The notes under the pieces were generated by a model that saw nothing but the letters and a program-made list of their open reading frames with translations, made no database searches and was not told the origin of the DNA. Below are positions 16,431 to 21,638 of a stretch of 64,000 bases of DNA, one piece after another (within the stretch, counting starts at the first letter, position 1; every line of letters starts with the position of its first letter). This DNA comes from Methylocystis silviterrae. GTDB taxonomy: Bacteria; Pseudomonadota; Alphaproteobacteria; Rhizobiales; Beijerinckiaceae. The stretch lies in NCBI RefSeq assembly GCF_013350005.1, contig NZ_JABVWW010000001.1:248001-312000 (forward strand), given 5' to 3'. Both the position numbers and the translations under genes were made by a program.

Positions 16431-19301
<2,871 letters not shown>

Positions 19302-19642
19302 AACGCGTCACCCGATAGAACTATGGTCGCGCCTCCGACTCGGCGAGTCTGCTCGGCGGAACATCATGTCAATCCGGAAGGCCGATCGAAGGTCGCGCGC
19401 CCCCGCACAGCGACGGCAAAGCTGGAAGGCTAATTCGAGAAGTATGTTTCACTGTTCCGGAGTCCGACCAAATCGGATCAAGCGCAAGCGATTGGAACCA
19501 AGCGCCAAGCGGCGTCGCGCATTCGCTTTGTCTTGCATCAAAATCGACGCGTCGCTTCGTCGCACAGCGGTTTTTCGTCACCTCGCTTGACCGCACGCAA
19601 GATTGAAACCTAAGGTCGGTGCTTGGAACCCGAGAGGCGGCG
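19302..19642. other. Intergenic region, no supported gene
   Basis: 341 bases between the divergent three-domain ligase and the secreted DUF2946-like protein. Small ORFs on both strands lack coding character and recognisable family features. The region presumably holds promoters for both flanking genes, but I see no convincing element. Confidence 0.5.
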
Positions 19643-20026
19643 GTGGATCCAATCTTCCAGCGGACAAGTCAGCGTGCGCGCATTTTTGCGGCGCTCGTCG
19701 CCTTCCTTATGCTCGTGCAGACCACGAGCGCGGGCGCGGGCGCCGTTGCGCTGGGAGAAGGCGTCGCTTTCGGAACAATCTGCGCGCCGCAGGATGCGGG
19801 GAACGGCGAGCCGCCGCTTTTCCCGAATGAACGCCACCGCCATGGATTCTGTTGCGTTCTTCACAATGGCGCGTTGGACGCGCCTCCTTCCAAGCCAGTT
19901 GTTTCGATCGCTCTAATTTTTCCAGCTGAGGCTCGTTCGTGTCCGCTGGAGAGGTCCAGTCAGGCGCCGCGCATCGAGCCACGGCGCGCGCCACAATCGC
20001 CACGAGCTCCTCCCCGACAGGGCTGA
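19643..20026 (+). CDS. Small secreted Cys-containing protein, DUF2946-like
   Basis: 127 residues. I chose the GTG start because GAGAGG lies five bases upstream. A hydrophobic N-terminal helix (IFAALVAFLMLVQ) ends in small residues, consistent with export. The mature part has the scattered pattern GTICAPQ, HRHGFCCVLHNG and ARSCPLE, resembling DUF2946 proteins that occur beside copper genes in proteobacteria. The C-terminus is Pro/Arg-rich. It lies ~200 bases upstream of the orphan pmoC on the same strand, so a copper-related periplasmic role is a reasonable inference. The family assignment rests on pattern only. Confidence 0.5.
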   Translation: MDPIFQRTSQRARIFAALVAFLMLVQTTSAGAGAVALGEGVAFGTICAPQDAGNGEPPLFPNERHRHGFCCVLHNGALDAPPSKPVVSIALIFPAEARSCPLERSSQAPRIEPRRAPQSPRAPPRQG

Positions 20027-20180
20027 AGTTTTCTCGCGCTGAGATTCAACGCAGCCGCCATCATTACGATGGTGATGCGGCGAGAGCGCGTTCGCGAAAA
20101 ATCTTTCAAACGGATCCTGTCGCCACGGCTGCGAGAGCAGACGCAGCGACTGCCGAGCGCGCGCGCATCAAACCATTCCA

Positions 20181-20198
20181 TGGGGCTTTCATGCCCCA
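20181..20198 (+). promoter_or_regulatory. Stem-loop in the pmoC 5' untranslated region
   Basis: TGGGGC and GCCCCA pair around a six-base loop (TTTCAT), ending about 13 bases before the pmoC Shine-Dalgarno TTGGAG. It could affect message stability or ribosome access. No protein-binding role can be read from sequence. Confidence 0.35.
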
Positions 20199-20224
20199 CA
20201 TAACCAGAATTTTGGAGATGACTT

Positions 20225-20998
20225 ATGAGCATGACAAAAGCAGAGGCCCGTTCCGCCGCGCGAAGCGCTGAACGAATTATCGACACCAGGCCCGTTCTTA
20301 TCGGCGTTGCGGTCTTGATGTTCTTTGTGGCTATCCTGCGCCTCTACGAACAACTTTTCGCCTGGAGATTTGGTCTCGATTCCTTCTCCCCCGAGTTTCA
20401 GCTCTACTGGATGGGCCTGTTGCAATTTGCGATTCTCGCGTCGTGCTTGGGCGCGGTCGGCCTTGTCGGCTTTCTGTGGCGCACGCGAGATCGCGATCTG
20501 GCGAATTTGGGAGCCTCAGCCGAAACGCGACGGCTCGTTTATCTCGTCCAGTGGCTGCTCGTTTTCTCGCTCGCCCTGTTTTGGGGCTTAAGCTTCTTTT
20601 CGGAGCAGACGGCTGTCTGGCACATGACCGCCGTGCGCGACACGGATTTCACGCCGAGCAATATCATCACCTTCTATATTGCATATCCGCTCTTTGCGAT
20701 CATCGGGCTAGGCGCGTTCTTCTATGCGAAAACGCGCCTGCCGACTTTCGCGAAGGGATATTCTCTCGCCTTCGTGGTTCTTGTCGTTGGCGTCTTCATG
20801 ACGATCCCGAATGTGGGATTCAATGAATGGGGTCACACGTTCTGGGCGATGGACGAAGGCTTTGCAGGTCCGCTGCACTGGGGCTTCGTCTTTTTCGGCT
20901 GGATGTCGCTGGCGACTTTCGGCGTCGTGCTGCTGATCCTTGGCCGTCTTCGCGAGCTCCTCGGCGCGGATGCGCTAGAACAGCTCTATCGACGTTAA
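20225..20998 (+). CDS. pmoC: Orphan particulate methane monooxygenase subunit C paralog
   Basis: 257 residues with about six membrane helices, matching PmoC along its whole length (YEQLFAWRFGLDSF, RDTDFTPSNIITFY, FFYAKTRLPTFAKGYSLAF, GFNEWGHTFWAMDE, PLHWGFVFFGWM). There are no pmoA or pmoB genes beside it, as for single pmoC copies in type II methanotrophs. Numbering coincides with Methylocystis PmoC. There the CuC ligands are D129, H133 and H146; here they are T129, H133 and N146. The CuD ligands N200, H204 and H218 (NEWGH, PLHW) are kept. It may join PmoAB as an alternative subunit or act alone. A good ribosome site (TTGGAG, eight bases) supports the start. Confidence 0.93.
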   Translation: MSMTKAEARSAARSAERIIDTRPVLIGVAVLMFFVAILRLYEQLFAWRFGLDSFSPEFQLYWMGLLQFAILASCLGAVGLVGFLWRTRDRDLANLGASAETRRLVYLVQWLLVFSLALFWGLSFFSEQTAVWHMTAVRDTDFTPSNIITFYIAYPLFAIIGLGAFFYAKTRLPTFAKGYSLAFVVLVVGVFMTIPNVGFNEWGHTFWAMDEGFAGPLHWGFVFFGWMSLATFGVVLLILGRLRELLGADALEQLYRR

Positions 20999-21030
20999 GT
21001 TCGCCCGGCGCTTCAGCCGCATAATTGCGA

Positions 21031-21063
21031 AGCCGGCGCCGACTCCTTGGAGCGGCGCCGGTT
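21031..21063 (+). terminator. Probable terminator of pmoC
   Basis: CCGGCGCCG pairs perfectly with CGGCGCCGG around an 11-base loop, extended by two further pairs, 35 bases after the pmoC stop. Only a weak T stretch follows, so termination may be partial or Rho-assisted. Confidence 0.5.
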
Positions 21064-21122
21064 GCATTCTCAGGTTCGGCGTATGTGCAGAGGCCGACGC
21101 GTCCATGTGGCGGACATCTGCC

Positions 21123-21638
21123 TCACGGCAACGCCTGCTGCATCAGCACGGCTGGGAATGACACCTGCGAGGCGAGAGGGATATGCGCCCCCGCTACGGT
21201 TTTGAAGCCTAACGCCTTGTAAAAATTTTCGGCGGCGAACGTTGAGCAACAATGAAGTTCGCTTACGTCTCGAGCCTTTGCGTCCATGCAGCACCGATTC
21301 ATAATCGAACGCGCGATGCCCAAGCGAGTCCAGCCGGGATGGGTAGCGAAATGGCGGATATGCGCCTCCCCTCGGACGATCTTTGCAGTTCCCGGACGCT
21401 CAAGCGACCAGCCTCCGCACCCGATGAGTTCGCCGTGGCTGCTCTGCGCGACGTAGAAGGCGCCAGATGCGAGGAGTGTCGGATTTGCCTTTGTCATGAA
21501 AGGCAAGGCTCGATCGAGCAGCGCCTTTTCGTAATGCGAGGCCAACAGAGTTGAGTAGCTCGCCGCCAAGAGGGCGCTCACCGCGTCTGCGTCAGAAAGA
21601 GCTGAGAGCCTCACGATGTAGGTCACGGTCGCGACCAT
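21123..21638 (-). CDS. GNAT-family N-acetyltransferase
   Basis: 171 residues. IRHFATHPGWTRLGIARSIM is the GNAT acetyl-CoA-binding motif region (R-x-x-G-I-A form), and STFAAENFYKALGF is the typical C-terminal alpha/beta element. No signal peptide or extra domain. It is convergent with pmoC and separated from it by the hairpin terminator, so there is no reason to link the two functionally. Substrate unknown. Confidence 0.78.
   Translation of the reverse strand: MVATVTYIVRLSALSDADAVSALLAASYSTLLASHYEKALLDRALPFMTKANPTLLASGAFYVAQSSHGELIGCGGWSLERPGTAKIVRGEAHIRHFATHPGWTRLGIARSIMNRCCMDAKARDVSELHCCSTFAAENFYKALGFKTVAGAHIPLASQVSFPAVLMQQALP

Follow-up and report, generated by a model that had tools for sequence, protein, structure and literature searches.

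This locus raises the question of what a PmoC outside a pmoCAB operon does when two of the three ligands of its CuC copper site have been replaced. Stand-alone pmoC genes are already known; this one lies in the window (the whole 64-kb stretch of Methylocystis DNA that was analysed) and has the following features, the residues having been read from the sequence:

20225–20998, plus strand: orphan pmoC paralogue of the T/H/N type, 257 codons with an ATG start; matches Pfam AmoC with E 6.5e-90
20609–20611, plus strand: codon for T129, where canonical PmoC has the CuC ligand D
20621–20623, plus strand: codon for H133, a retained CuC ligand
20660–20662, plus strand: codon for N146, where canonical PmoC has the CuC ligand H
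20822–20878, plus strand: CuD ligand region with N200, H204 and H218, all retained

The protein aligns without gaps to two Methylocystis PmoC chains, 3rfr_C (residues 1–251, E 2e-100) and 4phz_K (residues 1–252), which bears out the claim of an earlier note on this DNA that it is collinear with Methylocystis PmoC, together with that note's reading of T129, H133 and N146 at CuC and N200, H204 and H218 at CuD. The first CuC stretch reads EQDGAWH/EQDGTWH in these chains and EQTAVWH in the window protein, and the second TPSHII and TPSNII respectively, such that D129 is replaced by T and H146 by N while H133 and the neighbouring residues are conserved; we refer to this arrangement as T/H/N and to the canonical one as D/H/H. 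Adding 27 converts these positions to Methylococcus numbering, in which CuC is given as D156/H160/H173 (PMC7674155, PMC12576850) and CuD as N227/H231/H245 (PMC11194816). A local alignment shift that would restore the CuC ligands is ruled out by the gap-free alignment and its conserved flanks, and a sequencing error is excluded because the same triplet recurs in all 26 distinct genes of the clade described below. The protein passes the curated cut-off of PF04896 (AmoC; 301.2 bits against 26.7) and falls under both NCBIfam equivalog cut-offs (NF041641, 301.3 bits against 319; TIGR03078, 277.4 against 280.6), which fits a diverged paralogue and not an equivalog. An AlphaFold2 model (mean pLDDT 72) has 7s4m_C as its best fold match in the PDB, with TM scores of 0.78/0.82; residues 129–142 and 195–209 score below 50, so we use the model for the fold match only and claim no copper-site geometry.

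The genome contains five AmoC matches, comprising the window copy, a contig-end fragment and three full-length proteins that are all D/H/H. It is also a stand-alone gene, as the earlier note had it: searches that used the PmoA and PmoB of this genome as queries find neither gene in the window or in the 24 T/H/N loci of relatives that were searched, which represent 21 distinct genes. The genome's pmoA and pmoB are on contigs C44 and C63, and the window is on C11.

Relatives were drawn from 39 Methylocystis genomes (among the matches listed), 199 genomes of the family, 84,980 species genomes (the best 80 of 378 matches) and the IMG/VR viral contigs (the best 80 of 106), and residues were read for matches with a returned locus, with several weaker or partial matches in the genus outside the count. 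T/H/N pmoC is present in at least 25 of the 39 Methylocystis genomes as 26 distinct genes, the window's included, with identities down to 59% (42 sequences before duplicate removal; one genome, G027, has two). All 42 sequences are T/H/N at CuC, all other PmoC sequences are D/H/H (79/79 cellular, 80/80 viral and 2/2 plasmid), and no intermediate occurs among those read; three partial sequences do not reach the ligand positions. The CuD ligands are present in all 42 sequences and thus in 26/26 distinct genes. Matches to other genera in the family search are all at or below 58% identity, with ligands read in part of them. A viral counterpart was sought and rejected, the best 80 of the 106 viral relatives being uniformly D/H/H and the 'phages' collection giving no match; a plasmid counterpart fared no better, since 10 plasmid records matched, all at less than 60% identity, and the two that were read are D/H/H and leaderless.

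In a tree of 74 sequences, with the two ligand columns left out, the 25 T/H/N members form one clade with 100/100 support, marked by a single change on a stem of length 0.75 on the Methylocystaceae pmoC1 side. The tree omits the one frameshifted gene, duplicate loci and many D/H/H sequences, using 49 D/H/H members of the 79 cellular and 80 viral ones. The median dN/dS of T/H/N pmoC is 0.16 in both main subclades, reflecting purifying selection, and with the single clade this indicates that the ligand change arose once and has since been held by selection. The description in the earlier note of a stand-alone PmoC that is CuD-only by its ligands stands, and the gene is maintained; either of the readings offered there, an alternative subunit or a CuD-only copper or oxygen protein, would fit these features. 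The single origin of an old clade was not foreseen there, nor was the leader that we describe next.

Upstream of pmoC is a second, smaller reading frame with the following features:

19607–20026, plus strand: open frame of the leader ORF (uORF), DUF2946-like, with a listed GTG start at 19619 and 135 codons
19850–19864, plus strand: putative metal motif C78-C79-V-L-H82, with C-x-x-H for the C-x-x-C of the family; CC..H in 24/24 leaders
20003–20014, plus strand: RAPP arrest-type motif, followed by three residues and the stop codon (20024–20026)
20027–20224, plus strand: leader–pmoC gap of 198 nt (148–257 nt in 24 loci), with a Shine-Dalgarno-like GGAG at 20214–20217

The gene upstream of the leader is on the opposite strand, making the leader the first ORF of the unit, and a hydrophobic N-terminal stretch is visible in its translation. 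Its match to the DUF2946 profile (PF11162; E 5.3e-4) scores 21.2 bits, below the cut-off of 23.7. Among the matches listed for a DUF2946 search of the 39 genomes there are nine leaders beside T/H/N pmoC genes, five over the cut-off (24.7–33.0 bits) and four under it (21.3–22.4), the highest being that of G006 (33.0 bits; 32.2 for the translated leader). The C-terminal motif of the 24 leaders is RAPP in 21, RGPP in one and RPPP in two, and all of them have CC-x-x-H; the distance from the first cysteine to the arginine of RAPP or RGPP is 50–52 residues in 22 distinct loci. Leader dN/dS is 0.42–0.43, with conservation concentrated in the motifs, a value that omits two leaders with CCVVH (L008 and L009) that are outside the stricter pattern. 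The sequence GGAGA is invariant upstream of pmoC in a 14-row alignment (one duplicate gene among the rows). A promoter scan of 19250–21150 gave no plus-strand sigma-70-like site, and there is a slight C-over-G (rut-like) bias near the leader 3′ end and in the gap, which does not rise above +0.13 in any 70-nt window.

These features recall CruR of Bordetella pertussis, a DUF2946 (PF11162) protein described as a copper-responsive uORF (Roy et al. 2022, PMC9426467). According to that account, the RAPP near the CruR C terminus arrests translation when copper is absent and downstream expression is allowed, and sensing of copper through CXXC, 45 residues before RAPP, leads to Rho-dependent termination. 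Arrest through RAPP in CruR, and through RGPP in other peptides, has been reported in vitro (PMC12992588); for RPPP, present in two of the 24 leaders, we found no arrest data in the literature. The match to CruR in motif spacing and in the position of RAPP counts for a copper-sensing leader, and the CC-x-x-H in place of CXXC and the score of 21.2 bits against 23.7 count against the CruR reading. From its motifs we take the window leader to be CruR-like, and not CruR itself.

The leader is tied to the ligand change. It precedes pmoC in 24/24 testable distinct T/H/N genes, a count that omits one gene in which the contig starts (L090) and one with 324 nt of upstream sequence (L021/L046), in which no leader is present. 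When one pattern is applied to all classes (an ORF on the pmoC strand, no more than 800 nt away and with R(A/G/P)PP at its C terminus, for genes with 400 nt or more of upstream sequence), a leader is found in 51/51 T/H/N sequences, duplicate loci included, and in none of the D/H/H sequences (0/74 cellular, 0/77 viral and 0/2 plasmid). A narrower pattern with RAPP or RGPP gives 36/39 and, for cellular D/H/H, 0/74, the misses being the two RPPP genes. Because leader and ligand change mark the same single clade, their association represents one evolutionary event, retained many times over, and a Fisher p-value overstates it. The 12 inner-subclade loci largely share the window neighbours (aroC, an acyl-AMP ligase fusion, a GNAT gene and hemW), with not every gene present everywhere, whereas a search for nine window genes in nine outer-subclade loci finds just two of them, the leader and pmoC. 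The two have thus remained side by side in different gene contexts, the nine loci not being all independent, in that L234 and L237 have another neighbour in common. We note that the gene adjoining the leader (16431–19301, minus strand) encodes a protein of 956 residues in which carrier-protein, acyl-AMP ligase and acyltransferase domains are fused, and that this fusion is found in part of the inner-subclade loci. We also note that G027 has one T/H/N pmoC from each main subclade (L020, and L047 on contig C132), with their own leaders ending in RPPP and RAPP respectively.

The leader is the strongest clue to the function of T/H/N PmoC. We propose that leader and orphan pmoC form one copper-responsive unit of two ORFs, with pmoC as its product gene and with the leader sensing copper as a nascent chain, much as CruR does. 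At low copper the C-terminal RAPP would stall the ribosome on the leader, and the stalled ribosome would block Rho, following the CruR model, so that pmoC is transcribed; copper bound at the Cys/His motif of the nascent chain would relieve the stall and pmoC expression would fall. The resulting PmoC, without CuC and three further acidic residues and with CuD, would join PmoA and PmoB in copper-poor cells. T/H/N PmoC would thus probably be an alternative pMMO subunit that cells make when copper runs short, and to the whole of this reading, a copper-regulated, CuC-less paralogue behind a CruR-like leader serving as the copper-sparing PmoC, we give roughly an even chance. Its parts differ in strength. 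By homology with CruR, the leader would respond to copper and stall, and its control of pmoC seems to us highly probable; that low copper is the on state is likely, with less support than the copper response itself. The swap of T/H/N PmoC into PmoAB we put at slightly under even, and assembly with PmoAB together with residual catalysis at CuD would be the least supported step. Recent work favours CuD as the active site of pMMO. A fuller version, in which the sensor turns on production of a PmoC without CuC, this protein takes the place of PmoC1 and the resulting low-copper pMMO isoform oxidizes methane at CuD, is tentative and on balance doubtful. Sensing appears to lie with the upstream ORF and not with PmoC, which would be the product under control, and the regulatory role suggested for the protein in the earlier note fits less well. 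The distribution of T/H/N pmoC is also left unexplained by the presence of sMMO, which counts against our explanation: a PmoC for strains without sMMO is unsupported, as T/H/N genes occur in 6/7 genomes of the genus with an sMMO match and in 19/32 without, and the window genome itself has both.

The main rival concerns what the protein does. The PmoC fold may serve in copper-poor cells as a non-catalytic copper-handling membrane protein, whether a CuD-type carrier, a reservoir or an assembly placeholder. This would suit an orphan gene with neither pmoA nor pmoB found nearby, and it gains from the loss of CuC and from the extent of change. Among the 100 near-invariant positions (one residue in 95% or more of the 49 D/H/H tree sequences), 26 are altered in most T/H/N sequences, including D129 and H146, and E69, E73 and E149 (Methylococcus E96, E100 and E176), so that four acidic residues are lost in all (D129, E69, E73 and E149) and binding to PmoAB is not assured. 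However, E127, the CuD ligands, F150, F213 and F221 are retained in 25/25 T/H/N tree sequences, the three phenylalanines corresponding to Phe177, Phe240 and Phe248, which are described as surrounding CuD (PMC11194816). The pattern, as read from the aligned residues, is one of CuC ligands erased and CuD pocket retained, as if an active pocket were in use, and dN/dS is low over the entire protein; we regard the copper-handling role as unlikely, at perhaps half the weight of the copper-sparing PmoC.

Also on the side of copper handling is the occurrence of the same leader type before genes resembling those for copper acquisition. The window genome has six other intact DUF2946 leaders, followed by genes for MbnP, ExbB-ExbD, two TonB-receptor-like proteins, a DUF1097 protein and a small ORF ending in RAPP. 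The CruR-like leaders L243, L245, L246 and L248 precede MbnP, TonB-receptor-like, ExbB-ExbD and second TonB-receptor-like genes, respectively, and the genes behind these four are likely a copper-acquisition set. Across the genus, 36 DUF2946 loci were surveyed, with CXXC in 30, CC-x-x-H in five and neither in one; three of the five CC-x-x-H leaders precede pmoC and two, L141 (G004) and L144 (G035), have no detectable pmoC. The latter are CC-x-x-H leaders with RAPP in genomes with no T/H/N gene among the loci read, and may have been left behind when pmoC was lost, or may serve other genes; such leaders without pmoC behind them count against our explanation. Three further observations concern these leaders. 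In G000, the genes behind a CruR-like leader with RAPP and CXXC (L254, contig C64, 85500–97500) encode a DUF1097 protein and a sigma-54 activator, and sMMO genes (matches to MmoC and the hydroxylase gamma chain) follow a few kb further on. The activator occupies what we take to be the position of mmoR, and this leader may be relevant to how copper switches cells between sMMO and pMMO, a problem studied for many years. The spacing of DUF2946 and sMMO matches in G005 is nearly equal to that at L254. Lastly, another pmoC lies about 11–14 kb from DUF2946 leaders in G000 (contig C1, 55815–70364), where two leaders diverge, heading ExbB-ExbD and a TonB-receptor-like gene, and also in G011, G015 and G024.

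A second alternative reverses the sign, with copper inducing pmoC and the protein buffering or detoxifying excess copper. The precedent is CutF of Rhodobacter capsulatus, also a DUF2946 protein, which is reported to raise its downstream gene on copper through a stem-loop at that gene's ribosome-binding site (PMC9973294), and this opposite response in a related leader counts against low copper as the on state. A CutF-like mechanism would need a hairpin close to the ribosome-binding site of pmoC; a GC-rich stem occurs there in many loci, but it goes beyond what shuffled sequence gives in no more than 4/24, and we claim no conserved hairpin. RAPP lies at the CruR position, the gap is long (148–257 nt, against 162 nt in CruR), and loss of a copper site would be odd in a copper buffer. 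We consider this reading improbable.

General stress forms of such subunits exist, AmoC3 of Nitrosomonas europaea being a general stress AmoC, and T/H/N PmoC might likewise respond to ionic or membrane stress, with the lost site incidental. The expression evidence comes from strain SC2, whose published chromosome (PMC3794950) has two pmoCAB1 operons, one pmoCAB2 and two stand-alone genes, pmoC2Gs and pmoC1Gs, the latter with the same sequence as the operon copies. In our search SC2 has three pmoC matches equal in score, one pmoC2-like and one T/H/N, so the T/H/N gene is probably pmoC2Gs itself, an assignment by elimination and not by locus tag. Table 2 of PMC9600857 gives PmoC2Gs at 4.5e5 LFQ against 1.83e8 for PmoC1 at 1 mM NH4+ (about 1/400), and at 2.23e6 at 75 mM NH4+, a rise of about 5-fold (log2 2.3). 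Its detection means that the protein is translated, at a low level in the medium used, and carries no direct information on copper, and we found no copper-response data for a T/H/N pmoC gene in the literature. The rise with NH4+ load also fits a general stress response and as such counts against our explanation, but a leader of copper-sensing type is tied to pmoC in every testable case and the ligand change holds without exception across the clade, where other positions vary, making a stress protein quite improbable. A monocistronic pmoC of M. bryophila (B1812_06380) is reported to be raised at ambient O2 (PMC12319191); we do not use it as evidence on the T/H/N gene.

A frameshift is present in one gene of the 26 (L021/L046 in G031), near residue 51 and close to a contig end, and is either decay or an assembly error; the remaining 25 have none in the available part, L090 beginning within the gene at a contig start. 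The notion that T/H/N pmoC as a whole is a decaying duplicate or an assembly artefact draws on this one gene, which has no leader in its 324 nt of upstream DNA, and is already contradicted by the conservation of the clade, with its dN/dS of 0.16, its uniform triplet and a protein detected in SC2 (T/H/N by elimination), so that we hold it to be extremely improbable.

Our search of the open-access literature, with most subscription papers outside its scope, turned up neither a PmoC described as lacking CuC ligands nor a pmoC described as preceded by a DUF2946/CruR leader. A clade of PmoC proteins without CuC and with CuD, maintained by selection, represents a natural ligand variant, available in strains that can be cultured (SC2, M. 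rosea and others), and hence a natural test of which PmoC copper site matters. Together with a leader of copper-sensing type, it suggests a part of the enzyme made when copper is scarce, and the leader offers a concrete and testable reason for the loss of CuC, namely copper availability. If true, a core subunit of methane oxidation would join the genes behind CruR-type leaders. It would follow further, though we hold this only tentatively, that CuC is dispensable for catalysis in nature and that a metal-sparing swap occurs within a copper monooxygenase.

Comparison with known systems places both halves of the unit. The window protein is like the PmoC of Methylocystis pMMO1 (PF04896; 3RFR, 4PHZ, 7S4M) in length, fold, CuD ligands and pocket phenylalanines, and unlike it in the change of the CuC D and H to T and N, the loss of three more acidic residues and its location outside a pmoCAB operon; it is roughly 50–60% identical to canonical Methylocystaceae copies of the pmoC1 side. 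With the stand-alone genes of SC2 (pmoC1Gs), plasmids and phages it shares the lack of pmoAB. However, the plasmid genes of M. iwaonis and M. rosea are D/H/H and leaderless (2/2), as are the viral-contig genes (D/H/H in the best 80 of 106, leaderless in 77/77 with enough upstream DNA), the residues given for phage PmoC being Asp156, His160 and His173 (PMC7674155). As in CruR, the leader is a small first ORF with RAPP three residues before its stop and a long gap downstream, and its metal motif is 46 residues (H82 to the RAPP arginine) before RAPP, where CruR has 45; unlike CruR, it carries CC-x-x-H in place of CXXC and is followed by a pmoC gene, an arrangement unmentioned in the synteny section of the CruR paper (PMC9426467). 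With CutF it would share export, putative for the window leader, as well as copper sensing and a proline-rich C terminus, but the response of CutF is opposite in sign to the one proposed here. Bacteria also make zinc-free paralogues of ribosomal proteins in zinc starvation. Although the proteins and the regulator are unrelated, the likeness in working would be that in both a metal-sparing paralogue without the metal site is placed under metal-responsive control.
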